Source: a virus. Taken from it: 21,217 nt of DNA. The notes beneath the pieces are model-generated. The model saw only the letters and a list, made by a program, of their open reading frames with translations. It was not told the DNA's origin and searched no databases. The translations under genes and the position numbers were made by a program. Shown here one piece after another: positions 1-21,217 of this stretch; position 1 is the first letter of the stretch; every line of letters begins with the position of its first letter. Where the stretch lies: IMG/VR virus record IMGVR_UViG_3300020469_002629, positions 1 to 21,217 of that record; one strand, 5' to 3'.

Positions 1-555
1 TGCGGTAGCATTTTGTTTTGTTACAATACCAACACCTGCTGCTTCTTCGTTTTTATTTTTCTTAGGGAATAATTTTTTCTTTTTCTTAGGGTTAGTAGAT
101 GCATTAACACTATCACTTGGCTCTGAAGTTATTGCATTCGCCGCACCTTTAGCAATCATCGCCCTTCCGGCAATGCCGAGTGCCGCTCTGGCGGCCATCG
201 CAGGTATAATCTCATCAACACGTTCTTCATTAACTTCTTTTTTATTTTTGTTCTTCTCGTATTTTTCAACAGACTTTTTAGCTGACTTTATCATTGCTTT
301 TTCATGTGCAGCTAATTGGCGTTGTGTTTTTTCTCTTTGATCATCAGCATACCCTTCTGATTTTTTCTTTGTAGGTAAACCTTTGTGCTTTGTTTTAGCA
401 AAGTCTTTTACATCAGACACTTTCATATCTTTAGCAACTTCTCCAGCTTCACCGCCTTTTTTCATGTCGCCCTTTTGCATAGCTCTTACTATACCAAAGA
501 ACTGTTGTTGCTTTTTGCTTACTGCTTTTTCAGATACAAATTCAAATGATCTCAT
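1..555 (-). CDS. DUF3008-like phage protein, C-terminus cut by window edge
   Basis: The frame is open from an ATG at 555 down to base 1, so 185 codons are visible and the stop lies outside. Residues from about 10 to 65 (KAVSKKQQQFFGIVRAMQKG, then a DVKDFAKTKHKGLP stretch) match what I know as DUF3008, a short family of unknown function common in T4-like marine phages. The rest is unusual for that family: a Lys/Glu-rich, probably helical stretch, an Ala-rich segment (PAMAARAALGIAGRAMIAKG) that could be a short hydrophobic helix, and a PKKKKK basic tail. The start overlaps the upstream stop as ATGA. The N-terminus MRSFEFVSE loosely resembles a T4 capsid-targeting leader. The function is unknown; the DUF3008 match is from memory of the motif. 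Confidence 0.75.
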   Translation of the reverse strand, partial: MRSFEFVSEKAVSKKQQQFFGIVRAMQKGDMKKGGEAGEVAKDMKVSDVKDFAKTKHKGLPTKKKSEGYADDQREKTQRQLAAHEKAMIKSAKKSVEKYEKNKNKKEVNEERVDEIIPAMAARAALGIAGRAMIAKGAANAITSEPSDSVNASTNPKKKKKLFPKKNKNEEAAGVGIVTKQNATA

Positions 556-2999: not shown

Positions 3000-3707
3000 C
3001 TATTTACCTGTTTTTATATATTTACGCACAGTGCCTAAGAGGTCGTTACAGCGCAATCTAAGCATCAGTAGTGTACTTTCCGTATCAACGTATATCCAAC
3101 GTCTAGTGTTGTATACATCGCGTTTAAGAAGCCAGTTATACGTAGCATCGGTAAATGCAATAGCAGGCTTCCTTGACTTACACCATTCTGCTAAACTTAC
3201 AAGTTCATTATACTTTAACGATGTAGGAGTTTTAAGATCTACTTGATAATTGTACATGCTGTGTGGTAATTCTTTTACAAATATTTCTTGATTGCTATCA
3301 AGCAAAGTGTCTTTCATACCAGGAGCAGGCTCGTGCCTGTTTCTAGTTATATCCGAAAACTCATAACAAAGTGTTTTGTAGAGTGTTTTGTTATTTGTAT
3401 ACACGTCTAGTATATTTGTTTCAATTCGAATAGTTGCTTCATTCTTTGGTACTGTATTAATAATACCTAAAAAAGATATCCATGTTTTCCCATGCTTTAA
3501 TATTGAATGAGCATTCTTTGTTCGCCAAGATTGGGTAGTAAACATAGCATCATCTGACTGTGGAGGTGGTCGTAAACCAGTCGCAAAGTCCAAGATCTCT
3601 TGATGTCCTAGTGTACGTAAAGCATACGCACCTTCTAATCGTAAGCTAACCTTGTAGATATACTTGTTATAAAACTTCTTTTTAGTTTGTTTTGCTGTCT
3701 TAAGCAT
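3000..3707 (-). CDS. unknown phage protein, 235 aa
   Basis: This is a well-formed gene whose ATG overlaps the end of clpA by 8 bp, implying coupled translation. The N-terminus is basic (KTAKQTKKKFYNKYIYKVSL) followed by RLEGAYALRTLG. The middle contains HGKTWISFLGIINTVPKNEA, and the C-terminal half (SLAEWCKSRKPAIAFTDATY, then RRWIYVDTESTLLMLRL) looks alpha/beta. I see no Walker, nuclease or metal-binding motif. The opening 'KKFYNKYIYKVSLRLEG' is a pattern I have seen in uncharacterised marine phage proteins. Its place directly after clpA makes an adaptor or substrate of the unfoldase conceivable, but nothing in the sequence shows that. Confidence 0.8.
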   Translation of the reverse strand: MLKTAKQTKKKFYNKYIYKVSLRLEGAYALRTLGHQEILDFATGLRPPPQSDDAMFTTQSWRTKNAHSILKHGKTWISFLGIINTVPKNEATIRIETNILDVYTNNKTLYKTLCYEFSDITRNRHEPAPGMKDTLLDSNQEIFVKELPHSMYNYQVDLKTPTSLKYNELVSLAEWCKSRKPAIAFTDATYNWLLKRDVYNTRRWIYVDTESTLLMLRLRCNDLLGTVRKYIKTGK

Positions 3708-6024
3708 CTTTACCAGCCTTGGCGGCTAGCTTTTGTGCCTTCTTCTCTTCTTTAGTTAGAGGCTTAGGCATAGGTGTAACTGTAAATGCAGGTTCGTTAT
3801 TTTCAATGTGAACAGCAACTTTACCACCGTCAACTAAATCTCCAAACAATACTCTTCTACTTAAAGGTGTCTTTATAGTTTTGTCAATCAGTCTGCTTAA
3901 TGGTCTTGCACCCATCTTAGGATTGTAACCTTTTTTGGTTAACCAGTTAATAGCGTCTTCATCAAGTTTAATTGCAATGTGTTTTTCTTTTAACTGTGTA
4001 TTCAATTCACCAATAAACTTATGAACAATACTCTTAACATTGCTAGTAGATAATTTAGCAAATTTAATTGTGCCGTCTAATCTATTTCTAAATTCAGGAG
4101 CAAAGTATTTTTTAACTGCTTTATCATCTTCAGAATCTTTTTCATTATCAGCAAAGCCAATTAATTTAGATTCGTTATCAGCAGCACCTAAGTTACTTGT
4201 CATAATAAGAATAGTGTTACGGCCATCTGCACGTTTGCCATTTGACCCTGTAACAAAACCGTTATCCATAAACTGTAACAAAATATTTGATACATCTTTA
4301 TGTGCTTTTTCAATTTCGTCTAGCAATAAAATAGCATTTGGTGTTTCTTGCAACTTGTTAATAAGTTGCCCAGCATCATCATCAAATCCTACATAACCTG
4401 GAGGTGCACCAATCAATCTTGCAACACTGTGCTTCTCTTGATACTCACTCATATCAAAGCGTATCAATGTCATGCCCATTTTGTTTGCAAGTTGTTTTGC
4501 TGTTTCTGTCTTACCTGTACCAGTTGGACCTAAGAATAAAAAACTACCGATTGGCTTATCAGGATCTTTCATTCCACTTTGTGCAACAAAGATCTTATCA
4601 AGAATAGTATCAACTGCTTTGTCTTGGCCAAACACTGCGTCTTTCATAGCAGTATCAAGTCCAGCAAGATTATTACTTTCTTTTTGTGATATAGTTTCAA
4701 GAGGCATACTAGTCATTTTAGCAAGTTCGTATGTTACTTGTTCAATATCAACAATCTGTACAACTTCTTCTGTTTCTTCAGTTTCGTTTAACTTGTATCT
4801 TGCTGAAGCACAGTCAAGAATATCAATTGCTTTATCTGGCAACTTCTTATCAGCCATATACTTAATAGATAAGTTTACTGCTTGTTGTATTGCTTCATTT
4901 GTAATTTTAACATTATGATGCTGTTCGTAGTACTTACGCAATCCTTTAAGGATTTTTACTGTAAGTTCTGGTGTTGGCTCGTCAATAGTTACACGTTGGA
5001 ACCTACGCATTAATGCTCTATCTTTTTCAAAGTACTTTCTATACTCTTCCCAAGTAGTTGAAGCAATAACTTTCATGTTTCCTTTTGTAAGTGCAGGCTT
5101 TAACATGTTAGCAAGATCGTTTGATCCTTGACTTGCTGAACCAGCACCACTCATCATATGTGCTTCGTCAATGAATAATATAATTTTACCTTTACGCTCA
5201 AGTGCCATTAGTACTGCTTTAATACGTTCTTCAAAGTCACCTCTGTACTTACTACCAGCAACTAAAGAACCAATATCTAAACTAAACACTAAATGATCTT
5301 GAATAAACTTAGGTACTTTCTTTTCATGAATCTTACGTGCAAGTCCTTCAGCGATAGCAGTTTTACCAACACCTGGATCACCAACCATAAGTACGTTTGC
5401 TTTGCTACGTCTTGCTAATACTAATTCAATCTTTTCAATTTCATCGTCACGACCAATAACAGGATCAATAACTCTTTGTTTTGCTTTCATAGACAAGTTA
5501 ACACAGAATTGATTAATAATTCTATCTAACTGATCTGGACTTAGATTGATTTCTTCGTCACCGCCAGGCCCATCATACATCTCTTCTCCGATGTGATGTG
5601 CTTGGAAATGCTCTACAAACTTCTGCTTATCAATACCGCCCTTTGCTAAGAAGTAAAATGCAAAAGAATTTTTCTCGCTCATAACACTAATGATTACATC
5701 AGCAACTTCGATTTGGTTACGACCGCTAAACAAAACCTGTGTAAAGCATCTATTCAATACACGTTCAACTGATGCAGTTTTCTTAGGATTTATATTCTTA
5801 TCCTTAGAAACTATATCACCTAAGTTATTTTTTAAGTAATGCTCTAAGTTCTTTTTAATAAAGTCAACGTCAGCACCAAATTCTTTAAGTCCGCCCGATG
5901 TATCTGGGTCAGCAAAAATTGAGTACACCAAATGCTCGATAGTAATATGCGTGTGCGTATGGTTTTGCGCAACTACTACAGAGGCATCAAAAATCTTTTG
6001 TAATTGTTTACTAGGTTCAATCAT
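3700..6024 (-). CDS. clpA: ClpA-like AAA+ protein unfoldase, 774 aa
   Basis: This is a hexameric ATP-driven unfoldase of the Clp/Hsp100 family, full length compared with E. coli ClpA (758 aa). Order: Clp N domain, residues 1-145 (THITIEHLVYSIFAD); D1 AAA+ with Walker A GDPGVGKT (215-222), pore loop KYRG (259-262), Walker B FIDEA (284-288) and arginines 340-341; D2 AAA+ with Walker A GPTGTGKT (499-506), pore loop GYVG (543-546), Walker B LLLDE (566-570) and sensor-2 GARPL (705-709). IGF at 622-624 sits where ClpA/ClpX carry the loop that docks ClpP. There is no ClpB-type coiled-coil insert between D1 and D2. No clpP is present, so host ClpP would be the partner (inference). The tail is Lys/Ala-rich. 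The start directly abuts the deformylase stop (TAAATG). Confidence 0.97.
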   Translation of the reverse strand: MIEPSKQLQKIFDASVVVAQNHTHTHITIEHLVYSIFADPDTSGGLKEFGADVDFIKKNLEHYLKNNLGDIVSKDKNINPKKTASVERVLNRCFTQVLFSGRNQIEVADVIISVMSEKNSFAFYFLAKGGIDKQKFVEHFQAHHIGEEMYDGPGGDEEINLSPDQLDRIINQFCVNLSMKAKQRVIDPVIGRDDEIEKIELVLARRSKANVLMVGDPGVGKTAIAEGLARKIHEKKVPKFIQDHLVFSLDIGSLVAGSKYRGDFEERIKAVLMALERKGKIILFIDEAHMMSGAGSASQGSNDLANMLKPALTKGNMKVIASTTWEEYRKYFEKDRALMRRFQRVTIDEPTPELTVKILKGLRKYYEQHHNVKITNEAIQQAVNLSIKYMADKKLPDKAIDILDCASARYKLNETEETEEVVQIVDIEQVTYELAKMTSMPLETISQKESNNLAGLDTAMKDAVFGQDKAVDTILDKIFVAQSGMKDPDKPIGSFLFLGPTGTGKTETAKQLANKMGMTLIRFDMSEYQEKHSVARLIGAPPGYVGFDDDAGQLINKLQETPNAILLLDEIEKAHKDVSNILLQFMDNGFVTGSNGKRADGRNTILIMTSNLGAADNESKLIGFADNEKDSEDDKAVKKYFAPEFRNRLDGTIKFAKLSTSNVKSIVHKFIGELNTQLKEKHIAIKLDEDAINWLTKKGYNPKMGARPLSRLIDKTIKTPLSRRVLFGDLVDGGKVAVHIENNEPAFTVTPMPKPLTKEEKKAQKLAAKAGKDA

Positions 6025-6543
6025 TTATTTTTGTCTCTTTTTTAATTTCTTCATAGCTAATTGTAACTTCAACCGACTCACTTTGTCAACAAAACAAATG
6101 CCATTTAGGTGATCTAATTCATGCTGAAAGCATTTAGCAAGATACCCTTCAACTTTTGCTTCTTTCGTTTCGCCTTTTGAGTTTTGATATTGTGCAACTA
6201 TCATCTTAGGTCTTTGCAAATGTAACCATAAACCCGGAAAGCTCAAACAGCCTTCTTTATCTAACACTTGTTCTTCACTTGCTTCTAAAATGACAGGATT
6301 AAAAACACAGAACGGTTCTGGAAAACCTGGTACGTTTTTTGATCCTATAGCAAACACTCTCTTTTTAATATTTAACTGGTTAGCAGCAAGACCAATGCCG
6401 TTGTGATTTAGCATAAAGTTACACATATCAAACTCTAATTTTTCTGGGTCTAACTCTTCTTTATCAAAATCCCATACTTCACTAGATTCATTTAGTGCTT
6501 TGTGTAAGCCTAACTTATAATCTAAATCTAATTTATAGTCCAT
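6025..6543 (-). CDS. def: peptide deformylase, 172 aa
   Basis: This cytoplasmic metalloenzyme removes the N-formyl group from nascent proteins. All three family motifs are intact: GIGLAANQ at 49-56 (motif 1), EGCLS at 97-101 with the metal-binding Cys99 (motif 2), and QHELDH at 140-145 with the HExxH histidines and catalytic Glu (motif 3). The length is normal for bacterial enzymes; most viral deformylases are shorter, lacking the C-terminal helix, while this one retains a basic C-terminal helix (VSRLKLQLAMKKLKKRQK). The N-terminus overlaps dnaJ by 11 bp and the stop abuts clpA, so the three are translationally linked. Deformylases are common in marine phages, where they are thought to process phage or photosystem proteins. 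Confidence 0.97.
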   Translation of the reverse strand: MDYKLDLDYKLGLHKALNESSEVWDFDKEELDPEKLEFDMCNFMLNHNGIGLAANQLNIKKRVFAIGSKNVPGFPEPFCVFNPVILEASEEQVLDKEGCLSFPGLWLHLQRPKMIVAQYQNSKGETKEAKVEGYLAKCFQHELDHLNGICFVDKVSRLKLQLAMKKLKKRQK

Positions 6544-7342
6544 GTTTTATTTCCATAATCTTTTTACGTTGTTCGTCTGTGTATTCTCTTGGCATTAGTG
6601 CTTTAATTCTTACTAACAAGTTTCCTTTCTTCTTTGTTCTTATATTTGGCAAGCCTTCACCGTTACAACTTAGTGTAGTATCGGGTGGTGTGCCTGCTGG
6701 TACGTTTAATTTAATTTGTTTGCCTGAAAGAGTTGTAACGACTGCGTGTGTGCCTAACATTAAATCCCATATAAGGATTTTTTCTTCACATAGTATATTA
6801 TCTCCGTAGCGTTGGAACCTGGGGTGATTGCGAACACGGATATGTACCATTAGGTCACCTGGTGGAACGTTTTGGACAGAATTATCTCCCATACCGGCAT
6901 ACCTTACAGTTTGACCTTCTTCAACTCCTGCCGGAACATTAATATCGATCAGTTTAGTTCTGCCTGTAGGAAGTTGTACTTCCATAGCAATTTGTTTACC
7001 GTTGTAAACATCTTCCATTGTTACATCAAGAGCAAGATCAATTTGTCTGTTCTGTGGTCTACGTTGCCCCATGTTAAAACCAAAGTTTCTAAATAGGTCT
7101 TCAAACCCGTTAGGATTCATTCCTTCAAACCCACCTGGACCGAATCCTTGTGGTTGAGGGTTATCATACTGCTGTCTTTTTTGCGGATCTTTTAGAGTTG
7201 AATATGCTTCGTTGATTTGCTTAAACTTTTCTTCGTTACCACCCCTGTCAGGATGATGTTGCATACTTGCTTTCTTGTATGCTGATTTAAGTTCCTTGTC
7301 CGAAGCATCTCTATTGACACCTAGTATAGAATAGTAGTCCAT
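6533..7342 (-). CDS. dnaJ: DnaJ/CbpA-like Hsp40 cochaperone, 269 aa
   Basis: This predicted cochaperone would stimulate host DnaK ATPase and deliver substrates. The J domain is at 1-62 with the essential HPD at 30-32 (MQHHPDRGG) and a KQINEAYSTLKDPQKRQQYD helix IV. A Gly/Phe/Asn-rich linker spans about 65-95. Two substrate-binding beta domains span about 98-250 (VQLPTGRTKLIDINVPAGVE; GKQIKLNVPAGTPPDTTL). The CxxCxGxG zinc repeats of DnaJ proper are absent, so it is a type II (CbpA-like) Hsp40. No strong Shine-Dalgarno precedes the ATG at 7342, and no clear promoter is visible in the 29-bp gap upstream. It heads the dnaJ-def-clpA run. Confidence 0.96.
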   Translation of the reverse strand: MDYYSILGVNRDASDKELKSAYKKASMQHHPDRGGNEEKFKQINEAYSTLKDPQKRQQYDNPQPQGFGPGGFEGMNPNGFEDLFRNFGFNMGQRRPQNRQIDLALDVTMEDVYNGKQIAMEVQLPTGRTKLIDINVPAGVEEGQTVRYAGMGDNSVQNVPPGDLMVHIRVRNHPRFQRYGDNILCEEKILIWDLMLGTHAVVTTLSGKQIKLNVPAGTPPDTTLSCNGEGLPNIRTKKKGNLLVRIKALMPREYTDEQRKKIMEIKHGL

Positions 7343-8750: not shown

Positions 8751-9165
8751 TTAACTCCTCTTCAGTTAACGGAGAACCGCCTATAATTTCAAAGCAACGT
8801 CTCTCGTGAACTTCATCTTTATTTAAAATTCTTTCAATGGACTTTGGTCTAGTTACTGATAAAGCCCCAATATCTCTCTTATCACCTGCTGCATTTAGTT
8901 TATTAAATTTTTCATTTAGGTTTCTATTTGCAGTTTCTAGTACTCTATTTAAGTCCTCAAGGTCATTTCGGACTTTAATAATGGCTTCAAAATCTTTTTT
9001 CTGCTGTTCAATTACAGCCTTTTGCTCATTGATGCCATCTTCTAGTTTAACAATGTTTGCTTTTGCTGTGTCAAGATCTTTTTGTAATGCTTTCACATAC
9101 ATAAATCCGCCACCTGCCGCAGCAAGTACAACTAGAATCATTGCTATTCTAATACTACTGAACAA
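8680..9165 (-). CDS. Rz-like coiled-coil membrane protein, candidate inner-membrane spanin, 161 aa, TTG start
   Basis: An N-terminal membrane anchor (residues about 5-27) is followed by a long predicted coiled coil to about residue 100 (ALQKDLDTAKANIVKLEDGI, KKDFEAIIKVRNDLEDLNRV) and a Cys-containing C-terminal part (RRCFEIIGGSPLTEEELNAT). Topology and length fit i-spanins of the Rz type. The start is a TTG at 9165, chosen because GGAG lies 7 nt before it; the next candidate, ATG at 9141, has no Shine-Dalgarno. It overlaps the ACP-like gene by 11 bp at its start and the lipoprotein gene by 71 bp at its end. Confidence 0.8.
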   Translation of the reverse strand: MFSSIRIAMILVVLAAAGGGFMYVKALQKDLDTAKANIVKLEDGINEQKAVIEQQKKDFEAIIKVRNDLEDLNRVLETANRNLNEKFNKLNAAGDKRDIGALSVTRPKSIERILNKDEVHERRCFEIIGGSPLTEEELNATKKSKVNSVCPELANPNYVTY

Positions 9166-9385
9166 TGTTCTTCTCCACCTCGTTTAGTAAGTCTTGTACT
9201 GTTTCAATGTTAAATGTATCTTCTTCTGGAATATTGATTTCTAATTTTTTACAAACTTGATCAGTAACATCAACAATGTCAAAATCATCTCCATCTAAAT
9301 CATCAATGAAATGACTTGCTTCAGTGATCTCTTTTCCAGTACCGAAATGTCTTTCCAGTACTTGCATGACTTGCTCTTTCCACAT
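9155..9385 (-). CDS. acyl-carrier-protein-like protein lacking the pantetheine serine, 76 aa
   Basis: Length, acidity and pattern match ACPs: a helix I region, HFIDDLDGDDFDIVDVTDQV (25-44) and KKLEINIPEEDTFNIETVQD (46-65), which align with the ACP features DLGADSLDxVEL and IPDEDAxxxxTVGD. The position of the phosphopantetheine-bearing serine (DSL) is Asp34 here (DDF), so it should not carry an acyl chain on the usual residue. The gene has an exact T4 late box 29 nt upstream and overlaps the spanin-like gene by 11 bp. It may be an ACP mimic or an acidic regulator. ACP-like genes occur in some marine phages, but the role is unknown. The fold call is pattern-based. Confidence 0.8.
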   Translation of the reverse strand: MWKEQVMQVLERHFGTGKEITEASHFIDDLDGDDFDIVDVTDQVCKKLEINIPEEDTFNIETVQDLLNEVEKNIVQ

Positions 9386-9533: not shown

Positions 9534-10373
9534 CTACTCCATCAACTTAGCAAGGGTCTTAGGACCTACAATGCCGTCTGCAACTAAACCATTTTTGGTT
9601 TGCCACTCTTTAACAGCCTTTTCAGTACCAGGACCAAAGTCGCCGTCTGCTGCAATACCAAGTTTCTCTTGCATTTGCATAACTGCTGCACCTTTTGCTC
9701 CTACTCTTAAAATACCAACAACTGGTGCTGGTGCTTTACTAGGATCAAAGTTTCCACCTAATACATCTAAGAAATGTTTAAAATGTTTTTTACGATCTTC
9801 AAGGCCTACTGTTCCGCCGTTAACCTTTTTACTCATAGCAACAATATCTTGATTGTCAGCCATAGCATTAATATTTCTTGTGTCCCAGAACCAACATGCA
9901 CTTTCTAATGCACCTTTGATAGTAGTTACATAATCAATTACTTCTTCAGCAGTCATGCCAATTGTTTTACCAAAGTCAGCATAGTTAGCACGACCAGTTA
10001 ATTGAATAACACCTCTACCACGGAAACGCCAACCATCTCCTGATGCTGTATCTCCATTACCAATTCTATTTGCGTATGTTACGTTTGCAATTTTTTCTGG
10101 TTGTCTTGCATATTCGTTTGCATCTCTGCCACCACGTGCAAAGTATTTTCCAAATACTGCATCTAATGCTTTTGCACTATAGTTTAAATTTTCTTCAAGT
10201 ACTCTAAAGTTAAGACTTTCGTGAGCGCATTGTGCTAAAAATCCTGCTGCTCTATCGACAGTATCAATTTCATACTTAGGAAGCATCTCAAGAAGTGCTT
10301 CATACCATTCGTCTACTTTACTGTTACCGTGCAATACTTCTGCACACATCTCTTTTGTAAACTCAAATTTCAT
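9534..10373 (-). CDS. endolysin: GH19 chitinase-like muramidase with C-terminal peptidoglycan-binding domain, 279 aa
   Basis: The predicted lysis enzyme cuts the peptidoglycan glycan strand. Residues 1-205 form a GH19-type catalytic domain: LAQCAHES with catalytic-type Glu52, VLEENLNYSA with Glu60/61, WRFRGRGVIQLTGRANY (about 115-131) and a KKVNGG segment at 182-187. Residues 221-278 form a PG_binding_1 domain (LRVGAKGAAVMQMQEKLGI, then DGDFGPGTEKAVKEWQ and DGIVGPKTLAKL). There is no signal peptide, so release would depend on a holin. The start shares a base with the upstream stop (TAATG). It lies upstream of the ACP-like and spanin genes, forming the lysis block. Confidence 0.95.
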   Translation of the reverse strand: MKFEFTKEMCAEVLHGNSKVDEWYEALLEMLPKYEIDTVDRAAGFLAQCAHESLNFRVLEENLNYSAKALDAVFGKYFARGGRDANEYARQPEKIANVTYANRIGNGDTASGDGWRFRGRGVIQLTGRANYADFGKTIGMTAEEVIDYVTTIKGALESACWFWDTRNINAMADNQDIVAMSKKVNGGTVGLEDRKKHFKHFLDVLGGNFDPSKAPAPVVGILRVGAKGAAVMQMQEKLGIAADGDFGPGTEKAVKEWQTKNGLVADGIVGPKTLAKLME

Positions 10374-11125
10374 TATTCAATCCTTTGTAATATCATGGAC
10401 TTCTGTCCATTAGTAAATACGAAGTCAGCGCCAACTTTATTAATATTATAGTCGCCTAGTACTTTGCTTAACCAAAATGTTTCAGCAGAAGCATCTAAAC
10501 CAATATCTGAAGTTGCATCAAGACCTTCGATTATATCTTTTGTTGCGCCCTCTTTAATCCATTTCATTTTAATAACATTACCGAAGGGCTTATAAAATGT
10601 AATGATATCATCTTTAAGTTCTAAGTTATCCATAAGTGTTTTAGTAAAGAAAGACTTAACTTCGTCTGTTCTTACTTGGGCTAACTTTGCTTCATACATT
10701 TGTTTGTCTGAAGGAATAACTTTGCTTAAATTTTCTGTTGTTGCTAACATCTTGTCGTTGTCTTTATAGTACTGAAACTTCCAATCTTCTATACCAGTTA
10801 GTTTAGTTACACCGTACAATAAATCTTTAATGTTTTCTGCTATTTTTTTATTTCTTTCAATCTCTACAAATACAGAATATTCACCTTCTTCGTTTTCACC
10901 TGAGCTAACATCTGCATCAAGTACAAATGAAAATCCTTTTTCGATAAACTCCATTAAATCTCTTGCTGGGTATCTATCTTTTGCTTGGAATGTTACAACG
11001 CATACATCTCTATCCTCTCCCATCTTTGATCTAAACTTATCTACTTCAAACATAGGATATACTAGATCTACTAAATCATTTTTACGTAGACCTTCTTCTA
11101 ATACTTTATTGTGCTGCTGTGTCAT
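10373..11125 (-). CDS. conserved phage protein, 250 aa
   Basis: This is a soluble, acidic protein. Seen stretches are HNKVLEEGLRKNDLVDLVYP, DVCVVTFQAKDRYPARDLME, FVLDADVSSGENEEGEYSVF and EIERNKKIAENIKDLL. The opening and the 'FIEKGFSFVLDADVS' region are familiar from unnamed conserved proteins of T4-like marine phages. No catalytic or binding motif was detected. It overlaps the next upstream gene by 20 bp and shares a base with the endolysin start, so it is co-translated with both. The late promoter at 11673-11680 probably drives it. A structural or assembly role is plausible but unsupported. Confidence 0.8.
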   Translation of the reverse strand: MTQQHNKVLEEGLRKNDLVDLVYPMFEVDKFRSKMGEDRDVCVVTFQAKDRYPARDLMEFIEKGFSFVLDADVSSGENEEGEYSVFVEIERNKKIAENIKDLLYGVTKLTGIEDWKFQYYKDNDKMLATTENLSKVIPSDKQMYEAKLAQVRTDEVKSFFTKTLMDNLELKDDIITFYKPFGNVIKMKWIKEGATKDIIEGLDATSDIGLDASAETFWLSKVLGDYNINKVGADFVFTNGQKSMILQRIE

Positions 11126-11642
11126 CTGCTGGCGCCTCTTGTTGAGCTGCTACTTCTTGTGCTGGCTCAAGGTTCATATTAACTGCATTGTTCGCTAAGA
11201 TATCATCTACTTTATTTCTATCAAGGTTCTTATAACCGCGATCAATATTCTTCATTAAACGTTTTGGCATGGCAATTTTAACCATCCAAATGTTATCGTA
11301 GTCGATTTTACCTTTTCTTGTACCAGGTCTAATATCGTCTACTGCTTTAATCTTTCTAACCTTAGCAATAGCAGATTCTGCAAAGCCTACTTTACAACCG
11401 TATTCTTTTAATCTTTTACCGCCTTGTGGCTCAGGCATATTTTCATATGGCCACATAAAAGTACATTCAACAAAGTATCGTGATTCGTTAGGACCAGCGA
11501 CTAATTCACCATCTAGCCAGCCATCATAAACATATACATCTAACTCATCTAAAACACGTTCAAAGTCTTTTAGTATATTTAGGCTGTTATTTGAACCATA
11601 AATTTGTTCAATGTTTCCAATAATATCTTTAGTAGTTGCCAT
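11106..11642 (-). CDS. conserved phage protein, 178 aa
   Basis: First gene of the minus-strand unit reading away from PhoH. The N-terminal half contains SLNILKDFERVLDELDVYVY, DGWLDGELVAGP, and a Trp/Pro-rich FMWPYENMPEPQGGKRL. A basic region (RKIKAVDDIRPGTRKGKIDY) precedes KIAMPKRLMKNID. The C-terminus is low-complexity Ala/Gln/Glu (EVAAQQEAPADDTAAQ), so probably disordered. A CATAAATAC late box lies 31 nt upstream and an AGGAGA follows before the ATG at 11642. The sequence pattern recurs in marine T4-like phages as an unnamed protein. No function can be read. Confidence 0.8.
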   Translation of the reverse strand: MATTKDIIGNIEQIYGSNNSLNILKDFERVLDELDVYVYDGWLDGELVAGPNESRYFVECTFMWPYENMPEPQGGKRLKEYGCKVGFAESAIAKVRKIKAVDDIRPGTRKGKIDYDNIWMVKIAMPKRLMKNIDRGYKNLDRNKVDDILANNAVNMNLEPAQEVAAQQEAPADDTAAQ

Positions 11643-12560: not shown

Positions 12561-12670
12561 TCTTCTTGGAATCTATCGCGGAGTGAGTCTAAAAGCTCAA
12601 TAAGCTCGTCTATGAGATTTTGATCTTGTTGTTGAGCTGTGTCAACTTCTACTTCTATTTTGATTTTCAT
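12557..12670 (-). CDS. acidic small protein, 37 aa
   Basis: The ATG at 12670 shares a base with the ferredoxin stop (TAATG), and the TAA at 12557 falls in the terminator hairpin. The product is [15 protein letters not shown] followed by a helical acidic part (LIDELIELLDSLRDRF) with leucine-type spacing. It is the last gene of the minus-strand replication/metabolism block. It fills the gap neatly and has normal codon use, but such a short frame could be chance. Function unknown. Confidence 0.55.
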   Translation of the reverse strand: MKIKIEVEVDTAQQQDQNLIDELIELLDSLRDRFQEE

Positions 12671-13020
12671 TAGTCTATTTGTACTGCGGGTATAGCTTTA
12701 AATAATTTTGTTTTATCTTCTTTGTAGTTCTCTTTTGCAAAGTCTATATAGTCTTCCATAGGTGGTTGTTCGTCTGCAATGTTTGGCCAGTTAGCGTCAT
12801 TAGAAAAATATTGATTATGCTTAAACCATTTGTTATCTTCGTCATCAGTTTGCCATATTGCATCTTCAGGACATTCAGGAACACACACTCCGCAATCAAT
12901 ACATTCATCAGGATTAATTACTAGCATGTTTTCACCCTCATAAAAACAATCTACAGGGCAAACACTTACACAGGTTGTGTGTTTACAGTTAATACATTTG
13001 TCGTCAACTACATGAGTCAT
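12670..13020 (-). CDS. fdxA: 7Fe ferredoxin, [3Fe-4S][4Fe-4S], FdxA type, 116 aa
   Basis: This is a small electron carrier. The first 52 residues track Azotobacter ferredoxin I with an offset of one: C9, C17 and C50 correspond to its 3Fe-4S ligands (C8, C16, C49), and C21, C40, C43 and C46 to its 4Fe-4S ligands (C20, C39, C42, C45). The free cysteines C12 and C25 are conserved too. Motifs are [20 protein letters not shown] and [18 protein letters not shown]. The C-terminal 60 residues are the usual FdxA extension ([17 protein letters not shown]). All ligands are present, so it should be functional. It lies between a 3-TM gene and a 37-aa gene in the clamp-loader operon. The electron partner is unknown. 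Confidence 0.96.
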
Positions 13021-15096: not shown

Positions 15097-15285
15097 ATGA
15101 TTAGAAATCTTTCACTAAACCTTGAAGTAGGACAAGAAATCCTTGTCGGTAAAAACAATAAACGTGCTAGAATTACGAAAATAGAGTTCCATGAAAAATC
15201 AGGGGAAGTTACAATTAATACGACCCAAGGCCCACGTAAGGCCTTGACGTTTAGATTAATGCCGGATTTAGAATACGCTTATTGA
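15097..15285 (+). CDS. small unknown protein, 62 aa, plus strand
   Basis: The start is set at the ATG at 15097 (MIRNLSLNLEVGQEIL), which has AGGAG 8 nt upstream; the longer frame from 15037 would begin inside the promoter of the divergent mazG unit. The protein is probably a small beta barrel (VGKNNKRARITKIEF, GEVTINTTQGPRKALTF). No known motif. Its 3' end overlaps the convergent GroES-like gene by 7 bp. A degenerate late box GGTAAATA lies 38 nt upstream. It is one of only two plus-strand genes here. Confidence 0.75.
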   Translation: MIRNLSLNLEVGQEILVGKNNKRARITKIEFHEKSGEVTINTTQGPRKALTFRLMPDLEYAY

Positions 15286-15674
15286 GCACCGAAGTCACCT
15301 GCGTCAAATGTAGCAGTGTCACCATCGCTATAATGTTGTCCCCAGTAGGCTAATTCAGGTTCAAAGTCGTCTGTACCAACAGCAAGAATTGCAGACTTTT
15401 CAACTTTTTGTATCTCGACCTCACCTAGGTCGGGATCGTCTACCTTTATCTTTCTTGTCCAACGACCATGTTCAATTAAGATCCAATCGTTTTTTTGGTA
15501 ATCGTCTTTGTTCTCAGAACCTTTATCATAGACTTTTGCCCAACGACTTTTAACACCGTGTGCTTTTGCATCGTCAGCGGCCATGATAATACCGCCTTTA
15601 GTTTTAGTTTCACCGAAATGCATTCCGTATACTAAAACATCATCGTGGAGGGGAGTGAGTTTACCTTTGATCAT
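15279..15674 (-). CDS. GroES/gp31-like cochaperonin, 131 aa
   Basis: A predicted lid for the host GroEL chamber. The N-terminus follows the GroES pattern: PLHDDVLVYGMHFGE (PLxDRVLV in GroES), then a mobile-loop region KTKGGIIMAADDA with the GGIIM tripeptide area that contacts GroEL, then GVKSRWAKVYDKGS (cf. GEVVAVG) and QKNDWILIEHGRW (cf. VGDxVLF). It is longer than GroES (97 aa) and close to T4 gp31 (111 aa), with an acidic C-terminal tail (DTATFDAGDFGAQ). T4 gp31 is needed to fold the major capsid protein. No GroEL is encoded here. The fold call is by pattern and I consider it likely. Confidence 0.85.
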   Translation of the reverse strand: MIKGKLTPLHDDVLVYGMHFGETKTKGGIIMAADDAKAHGVKSRWAKVYDKGSENKDDYQKNDWILIEHGRWTRKIKVDDPDLGEVEIQKVEKSAILAVGTDDFEPELAYWGQHYSDGDTATFDAGDFGAQ

Positions 15675-20568: not shown

Positions 20569-21217
20569 CTATACCCAACCGCCGATTGCAATTCTGCCCC
20601 AGCCCGTACTCTTGCGGACATAGACATAACTGTCATCAACTCTAATTTCGCCAACTTCTGCTGCTTCTGTTTCTGAACCTGGAGCAGCACTGTTCGGTGC
20701 AATCTTACCTGTAACTGTGCCTGTTGCACCATCAATTACTACAGAAGAGTCATCACCAAATACTGAACCTCTAATATCAATAGTTGCAGTACCATTTAGC
20801 ACTGCTGCTGGTATTGTGCTGCTAACAGCGTCTATTAGTAATGTACTATCATCGCCAAACACACTACCTTTAATGTCAGTTACAGGACTTCCTGTGTACG
20901 ATACTTCGCCTGTTGTAGCATTGTACATTAGCATAGTTGTACCAACTGCATTTCTAACTGGTTTAACTATAAACTCGCCTGTTTGAGTTGTGTTTAATTC
21001 AGTCTCTGTTTGGGCATTAATCACAATTGTATTTGCGTGTTGATTTAAGTGACCGGCTCTTTCACCAATTGCGATTGCATTTCCGCCTTGGCCTGATTGA
21101 CCCGCTTCGTCACCAATTGCAATTGATGATGCCGCCTGGTTTGTTTCACCTGCTTGATGGCCGATTGCTACTGCTTCTTCGGCTTGTGAATTATATCCTG
21201 CTTGATAGCCAATTGCA
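20569..21217 (-). CDS. tail fibre with YadA-head-like repeats, N-terminus cut by window edge
   Basis: The frame stays open from the TAG at 20569-20571 to the right edge, giving about 215 visible residues. The edge-proximal part has four 16-residue AIGxxAG units like the head repeats of trimeric autotransporter adhesins. Then come INAQTETELNTTQTGEF, a YNATTGEV motif, and two copies of D-I-(K/R)-GSVFGDDS about 33 residues apart. The C-terminus (VGEIRVDDSYVYVRKSTGWG, then RIAIGGWV) is a typical fibre tip. A GTG at 21024 is not the real start because the repeats run through it. It is probably a trimeric receptor-binding or long-fibre part. Confidence 0.85.
   Translation of the reverse strand, partial: AIGYQAGYNSQAEEAVAIGHQAGETNQAASSIAIGDEAGQSGQGGNAIAIGERAGHLNQHANTIVINAQTETELNTTQTGEFIVKPVRNAVGTTMLMYNATTGEVSYTGSPVTDIKGSVFGDDSTLLIDAVSSTIPAAVLNGTATIDIRGSVFGDDSSVVIDGATGTVTGKIAPNSAAPGSETEAAEVGEIRVDDSYVYVRKSTGWGRIAIGGWV
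20713..20877 (-). repeat. two GSVFGDDS modules, 99-bp period, in the fibre gene
   Basis: DIKGSVFGDDSTLLIDAVSS and DIRGSVFGDDSSVVIDGATG are offset by 33 codons in the same frame. The similarity is at protein level over about 22 residues. This module is frequent in marine phage fibres, where it may form repeated beta-prism-like units; the structural reading is inference. Confidence 0.7.
21025..21216 (-). repeat. four tandem 48-bp (16-residue) AIGxxAG repeats
   Basis: Units are AIGYQAGYNSQAEEAV, AIGHQAGETNQAASSI, AIGDEAGQSGQGGNAI and AIGERAGHLNQHANTI, each exactly 16 residues. The array runs into the window edge, so the copy number is at least four. The DNA has diverged between copies more than the protein, so this is an old, selected repeat rather than a fresh duplication. 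Confidence 0.85.

Follow-up and report, generated by a model that had tools for sequence, protein, structure and literature searches.

The control of host proteolysis by phages is usually described as the inhibition or hijacking of host Clp machines. Two of the papers used below we take to be those of Attai (PMC6102473) and of Iyer (PMC7824862). In the available passages of the 2018 description of Agrobacterium phage Atu_ph07, seven Clp proteins and DnaJ are listed, with its own ClpP, ClpS, ClpX and ClpB (PMC6102473), and those on the moraphages, which are jumbo phages, place ClpA among the core genes and report DnaJ and, in some members, DnaK and HSP20 (Perez-Hernandez 2025, PMC12619734). ClpP, ClpS, DNAJ and ClpA are noted separately in the passages of a 2021 review of jumbo phages, where ClpS is supposed to serve host ClpAP (PMC7824862); chaperones and Clp protease are mentioned in a passage on bS21 phages (PMC9723584), and the available text of PMC7162821 contains deformylase and none of the terms ClpP, DnaJ, DnaK, GroEL or chaperone. 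As far as these passages go, most parts of the system considered here are already known piecemeal (Atu_ph07 in 2018, moraphages in 2025). A full-text search of the passages of open-licence papers retrieved no description of the gene order dnaJ-def-clpA, and Atu_ph07 was the only single phage for which all three of ClpA, ClpP and ClpS were mentioned. This order was found in a 21,217-bp IMG/VR virus record (IMGVR_UViG_3300020469_002629; the whole stretch is hereafter called the window), where genes for a DnaJ/Hsp40 protein, a peptide deformylase (PDF, gene def) and a ClpA unfoldase follow each other on the minus strand, together with a fourth gene, the open reading frame ORF235. The trio is a real phage module with a dnaJ-clpA core and an optional def; on balance, we read it as a module of large tailed phages belonging to a ClpAP(S) machine that is encoded by the phage and backed by chaperones, and not just as a means of redirecting host ClpP.

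Gene order was inspected around the best 80 of at least 599 ClpA relatives in viral contigs (599 of 600 candidate stretches), so that the counts hold for the nearest relatives of the window; 67 loci with at least 1.5 kb upstream of clpA were testable, 13 with less were left uncounted, and some loci represent the same contig twice (L001/L090, L003/L084). dnaJ was located immediately upstream of clpA, on the same strand, in 66 of the 67 testable loci, with def between the two in 54 and absent from that place in 12; in the sole exception (L054) def adjoins clpA and dnaJ lies about 2 kb further upstream. When the loci were clustered at 85% identity of ClpA, the proportions were 46/47 for dnaJ upstream and 39/47 with def, and a search seeded with DnaJ found clpA after dnaJ in 14 of 15 loci, two of which lie on contigs included above. 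The conserved dnaJ-def-clpA synteny that the first-pass annotation of the window had proposed to look for in other phages was therefore recovered, including in a cultured phage annotated with the exact trio (Phosso, see below), and the remark made there that Hsp40 and ClpA together are uncommon in a phage is not supported by these counts. Gene distances were also strongly correlated, with Mantel r of 0.873 for DnaJ-ClpA (n=71), 0.845 for PDF-ClpA (n=57), 0.808 for DnaJ-PDF (n=56) and 0.897 for ORF235-ClpA (n=62), none of 999 permutations being as high for any of the four pairs.

As a bacterial control, 80 ClpA loci were taken from a genome collection, of which five phage-like ones were set aside, leaving 75 bacterial loci. 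Neither dnaJ nor def was detected upstream of clpA in any of the 68 bacterial loci with 1.5 kb upstream, by profiles which were built from phage DnaJ and PDF and may miss some bacterial ones; two loci had a dnaJ-like gene downstream, on the opposite strand. clpS was instead present in the fetched stretch of 73 of the 75 loci, directly upstream of clpA in 66. The five phage-like loci carried ORF235 in all five cases, dnaJ in four and def in two, one of them (L286) beginning at clpA. By their phage-type ClpA and ORF235, these five loci (L282, L283, L284, L285, L286) are probable phage contigs inside cellular metagenome-assembled genomes (MAGs), assigned to Neomarinimicrobiota, Pelagibacter, Pacearchaeota, Rickettsiales and Halobacteroidaceae.

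The dnaJ-clpA order is kept across distant phages, including three cultured ones. Sinorhizobium phage Phosso (PV764938) is annotated, like the window, with DnaJ-PDF-ClpA, and ClpP, a second ClpP-like protein and ClpS were matched in its genome; unlike the window, it has other downstream neighbours, and its ClpA is 39.8% identical to that of the window. Atu_ph07 shares dnaJ directly upstream of clpA and has ClpP and ClpS matches in its genome, but differs in having no deformylase match in 490 kb and a ClpA 38% identical to the window's. In Pseudomonas phage PA5oct (NC_071039), an annotated DnaJ directly precedes ClpA among structural proteins; in this case no def lies between them, the J-protein is shorter (229 aa, amino acids) and ClpA has a long branch. 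On the contrary, no dnaJ is annotated near clpA in RaK2, PBECO4, GAP32 and Vibrio phage 2.275. The moraphages resemble the window's relatives in the gene content given above; ClpP, ClpS, deformylase and the trio order are unmentioned in the passages of their description. Compared by description alone, Rki of the T4-related phage RB43 is likewise a phage J-protein, but is described as an ORFan, and the abstract draws no connection with def or clpA (PMC3486835); the phage Vp16 deformylase, active in vivo, is, according to the abstract, the smallest PDF and lacks the C-terminal region (PMC5591237).

All three proteins of the window match their own families over their length (by Pfam and alignment). 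Open reading frames and Pfam matches agree with the first-pass annotation that the trio is complete, that the ends of dnaJ and def share 11 bp (6533-6543) and that the def stop abuts the clpA start (6025/6024); a further overlap of 8 bp, between clpA and ORF235, was absent from it. The DnaJ protein scored 83.7 bits with Pfam DnaJ and 133.6 bits with DnaJ_C. HPD was present in all 86 DnaJ rows covering the site, the remaining 6 of 92 being gapped there, and CxxCxGxG zinc repeats occurred in none of the 92; with the class A model (TIGR02349) the window protein reached 216.5 bits, under the NCBI cut-off of 377, and the zinc repeats are absent. By its sequence features (HPD J domain, client domain, no zinc finger) it is a predicted Hsp40/DnaJ of class B. 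The deformylase scored 133.2 bits with Pfam Pep_deformylase and 127.1 bits with TIGR00079 (cut-off 103.95); EGCLS was found in 76 of 77 rows (one gap) and HExDH in 77 of 77, and by the motifs GxGxAAxQ, EGCxS and HExDH the def product is a putative peptide deformylase. ClpA matched AAA_2 (189.4 bits), AAA (107.9), AAA_lid_9 (94.3), ClpB_D2-small (89.4) and Clp_N (29.1, cut-off 20.7), and aligned over residues 10-745 with Escherichia coli ClpA (1ksf) at 678 bits, without long insertion. This end-to-end alignment confirmed an architecture made of the N-domain and two AAA+ rings with intact Walker A/B motifs. Relative to four relatives (L083, L085, L087, L089), ratios of non-synonymous to synonymous substitution rates (dN/dS) indicated purifying selection on DnaJ (0.08-0.10), PDF (0.02-0.04), ClpA (0.05-0.08), ORF235 (0.15-0.28) and the product of a GroES-like gene located apart from the run (0.08-0.13).

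This last gene, already called GroES-like in the first pass, scored above the Pfam Cpn10 cut-off of 21.1, and in a structure search its model gave the best Z, 8.8, with 1p3h (89 residues, root-mean-square deviation 2.9), T4 gp31 (1g31) following at Z 7.3; the top 13 rows consisted of Cpn10 and gp31 only, and plainly unrelated proteins began at Z 5.4. The product is, as modelled, of Cpn10 fold, and the phage Cpn10 may well use host GroEL.

The window ClpA reads IGF opposite the IGL of E. coli ClpA, a tripeptide of the IGL/IGF type which we take to be the ClpP-docking site. In a tally of 97 ClpA rows, made without L098 (a phage record containing host-like DNA, with clpS-clpA) and L099 (IGV), the tripeptide was present in all, as IGF in 78, VGF in 18 and IGV in one. 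In a second alignment, seven phage rows found through ClpP and four binned in MAGs read IGF, and bacterial rows read xGF in 20 of 20; IGF was also found in Phosso, Atu_ph07 and PA5oct, the isolates in which dnaJ is next to clpA. An altered tripeptide was seen in four isolates without annotated dnaJ beside clpA, namely RaK2 (IGV), PBECO4 (IGM), GAP32 (LGM) and Vibrio phage 2.275 (IGV), at loci L362, L363, L365 and L099. dnaJ-linked ClpA proteins resemble the cellular ones, since they have kept the tripeptide that is altered in these four. Where dnaJ is linked, docking to a ClpP, of the phage or of the host, seems conserved; where it is not, judging from four isolates only, which are few, this docking may have been relaxed.

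The window matches a 77-kb IMG/VR contig (G015, the contig of L081) at 99.9% over 20,984 bp, and the trio order recurs in contigs bearing other IMG/VR sample numbers. No sign was thus found of the chimeric assembly of host and phage DNA considered in the first pass. A quick tree built from 92 ClpA rows placed the window's phage group (65 rows, supported at 98%) apart from cultured jumbo phages and also from the bacterial ClpA sampled, whose 20 rows form a clade supported at 100%. The tree took 19 of the 75 bacterial loci and no alphaproteobacterial ClpA, and because of its long branches the branching order of the phages is uncertain; within this sampling, no recent capture of ClpA from a host is apparent. 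Of the comparison of all three proteins with host homologs that had been proposed, the ClpA part is addressed by this tree, and for the trio as a whole the distances given above are correlated (r 0.808-0.873). No point in favour of host DNA or of a chimera was found, and we give practically no credence to either: the contig match, the recurrence of the order across samples, the separate ClpA clade, and bacterial clpA loci that carry clpS and no dnaJ or def upstream all argue against this reading.

A 107-kb contig (G025) is a sister of G015, colinear with its distal part (35-77 kb versus 1-37 kb) in 18 blocks totalling 30.7 kb, mostly at 84-94% and some at 65-78% identity, with at least one block out of line. 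G025 is also colinear with the trio-bearing contig G020 over 27 kb at 90-94%. These overlaps suggest a genome of more than 200 kb for the lineage, an estimate drawn from contigs of different samples. In another contig of the lineage (G014), polymerase, portal and major head proteins belong to PHROG families 262, 213 and 138, presumably T4-type families.

Partner genes were searched in 23 records, namely the genomes of Phosso and Atu_ph07 and 21 viral contigs selected chiefly by length or closeness. ClpP exceeded the cut-off in eight, with a strong full-length match (211-279 bits) in seven and the divergent type only in G002; ClpS was found in seven, DnaK in one, deformylase in 21 and Cpn10 in five. 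In nine further records ClpS was found in four and DnaK in two. The sister contig G025 encodes ClpP, ClpS and Hsp20 (Table 1). Its ClpP aligned with solved ClpP structures at up to 260 bits, with conserved Ser, His and Asp regions that we take to be the catalytic triad, and its ClpS aligned with E. coli ClpS at 64 bits, the residues assumed to line the N-degron pocket being present; some of these pocket positions depart in Atu_ph07 ClpS. Because a colinear sister contig encodes these proteins, the window's own phage likely carries ClpP and ClpS, as well as Hsp20. In the reciprocal direction, 36 of 129 loci found through ClpP or ClpS were picked for long contigs, and clpA was present in seven, all with dnaJ directly upstream, three with def, and all followed by a match to ORF235 (25 bits only in one case); in the four ClpP-found contigs longer than 200 kb, the query's own excepted, clpA was present in 4/4.

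Table 1. Features of the window and of the sister contig G025
Feature	Position	Strand	Description
dnaJ	6533-7342	-	269 aa; J domain with HPD, C-terminal domain; zinc-finger-less (type B)
def	6025-6543	-	peptide deformylase, 172 aa; motifs GIGLAANQ, EGCLS, HELDH
clpA	3700-6024	-	774 aa two-ring AAA+ unfoldase; N-domain, both Walker A/B pairs, pore loops, IGF tripeptide
ORF235, fourth gene of run	3000-3707	-	235 aa
Cpn10/gp31-like co-chaperonin	15279-15674	-	Pfam Cpn10 27.6 bits; apart from trio run
Endolysin (lysis context), upstream of run	9534-10373	-	phrog_181 235.8 bits
Virion structural protein	10373-11125	-	phrog_13138 116.8 bits
Virion structural protein	11106-11642	-	phrog_12928 99.9 bits
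ClpP	G025 97388-97975		open frame; canonical type
Divergent ClpP-like protein	G025 41315-41908		open frame
ClpS	G025 54546-54908		open frame
Hsp20	G025 54912-55379		open frame

A divergent ClpP-like paralogue beside the canonical ClpP was observed in G025, G005 and Phosso (loci L265:1315-1875 (-), L121:1003-1572 (-) and L096:990-1667 (+)); it might serve as another proteolytic subunit or act as a head protease. clpS lies at most 0.8 kb from dnaK in three long contigs (G005, G023, G026); in the first of them (364 kb, the contig of L044) a second proteostasis cluster in the order clpS-hsp20-dnaK was seen at L126:4512-7264 (-).

In the phage-encoded machine that we favour, DnaJ, partnered by a DnaK of the host or of the phage, and Hsp20 would hold or present unfolded and aggregation-prone proteins, and ClpA would unfold the irrecoverable ones, together with those marked by ClpS, and thread them into phage ClpP. 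ClpP, ClpS, Hsp20 and Cpn10, and in some phages DnaK, would be supplied from elsewhere in the genome. The deformylase would be an add-on, providing extra finishing of the N-termini of nascent chains during massive protein synthesis; it is regarded as optional because it is missing from between dnaJ and clpA in part of the loci and was not found in Atu_ph07 or in contig G012. Formation of a ClpAP(S) complex and clients shared by the J-protein and ClpA are presumed here from sequence. More tentatively, and with considerable doubt on our part, the set might amount to a self-sufficient N-degron and quality-control network, in which PDF finishes N-termini, ClpS reads them, ClpA/ClpP destroy and DnaJ/DnaK/Hsp20/Cpn10 fold, and which would take over triage upon shut-off of host synthesis and actively reshape the proteome of the host at a late stage of infection. 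A widespread phage group appears to bring unfoldase, protease, adaptor and chaperones itself, and, given cultured phages, the purpose of a phage-owned ClpAP is now directly testable.

Several results weigh against a phage-owned machine. clpP and clpS are not universal, being found in only eight and seven of the 23 long records (many of these records being fragments), and they are distant from clpA; a 270-kb contig (G006) had no match for either, one of 217 kb (G007) had clpS and no clpP, and one of 231 kb (G022) clpP and no clpS. clpA was not seen in 29 of the 36 contigs found through ClpP or ClpS, and stands alone in RaK2-type phages. Leu/Phe-transferase was found in 0 of 23 records, and def is missing in some phages, with no deformylase match in the Atu_ph07 genome (490 kb) or in the 328-kb contig G012. 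The window itself gave no clpP match, a stretch of 21 kb being too short to decide the point, and its annotation did not turn up clpS, no ClpS search having been made on the window alone. Finally, the window ClpA scored 896 bits with the NCBI ClpA equivalog, below the cut-off of 993, which is a curator threshold and not a structural feature; this was still its top-scoring family.

The first-pass annotation had proposed that the phage redirects host DnaK, GroEL and ClpP. The syntenic proteostasis cluster on which this proposal was built is genuine; redirection of host ClpP is not the reading that we prefer, given that the sister contig and several relatives have ClpP and ClpS genes of their own, and a few a DnaK gene. 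That host machines are redirected throughout, with the phage J-protein acting on host DnaK, phage ClpA on host ClpP and phage Cpn10 on host GroEL, appears doubtful to us. It would accord with the scarcity of phage DnaK (over cut-off in 1/23 and 2/9 records), with the cellular-type docking tripeptide of dnaJ-linked ClpA, with the long contigs in which clpP was not found and, according to the abstract, with RB43 Rki as a phage J-protein acting on host DnaK (PMC3486835). We consider it unlikely that ClpA works independently of ClpP, as an unfoldase or translocase that helps to build the virion (tail), DnaJ being the assembly chaperone. A role of this kind is proposed for ClpA in the passages of the jumbo-phage review (PMC7824862), clpA lies among virion structural or tail-sheath genes in RaK2, PBECO4, GAP32 and PA5oct, and the run of the window is near endolysin and structural genes. 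However, a tripeptide kept in dnaJ-linked ClpA (IGF, VGF or IGV in 97/97, IGF in 14 further phage rows) would be needless in the absence of ClpP, and clpP is present in a number of these phages; the assembly role may hold in RaK2, PBECO4, GAP32 and Vibrio phage 2.275, where the tripeptide is altered. Very improbable, in our view, is a counter-defence in which the J-protein, possibly with ClpA, disturbs chaperone-dependent host immunity: passages in the literature indicate that bNACHT25 sensing requires host DnaJ (PMC12169576), and the idea is raised by the moraphage authors (PMC12619734), but it leaves the fixed clpA linkage, clpP, clpS and hsp20 unexplained.

Late expression of the trio is suggested by its location, since endolysin and structural genes lie nearby. 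The motif TATAAATA, which we take to be that of T4 late promoters, matched the window once against 2.6 matches expected. This single match sits 29 bp before an open reading frame and is kept in 8 of 8 close relatives scanned (L081-L085, L087-L089), the motif occurring at other positions in 2 of 8 more distant loci (L003 being the contig of L084); as it seems to fall inside the end of the upstream reading frame, it was not counted as evidence of a late promoter. Sigma-70-like sites were fewer than in shuffled sequences (24 versus 31.6) and terminator-like sites similar in number (6 versus 4.7).

A relative of ORF235 was found downstream of clpA in 70 of 79 testable viral loci. The model of ORF235 itself is of high confidence and has no convincing solved relative: Foldseek returned nothing at E 0.001 against the PDB, and eight rows at that level against viral models, all uncharacterised phage proteins. 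A ClpS-like adaptor of ClpA was tried as a candidate and rejected, since the rows matching its second half (7d34, Z 4.3; 1mg9, Z 3.8) were at the same level as many unrelated ones and profile comparison (hhalign) gave a probability of 0.12%.

Some further genes were seen in the window and in related contigs. A small frame resembling an acyl carrier protein by eye (9155-9385, -) adjoins the lysis genes; a 4Fe-4S ferredoxin-like protein (12670-13020, -) scored 104.7 bits with phrog_8732 and 32 bits with the ferredoxin family phrog_16249; and an open-ended frame (20569-21216, -) with AIGYQAG-type repeats looks by eye like a trimeric-adhesin head and is possibly part of a tail fibre. In the window's lineage, runs of cysteine-rich frames, radical-SAM-like by eye, were present at L263:8593-14238 and L271:2071-10919. 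In the 364-kb contig, frames at L126:3674-4228 (-) and 3-248 (-) are by eye heme oxygenase-like and curlin-like, respectively; curli genes are mentioned in a passage on pelagimyophages (PMC7029224).

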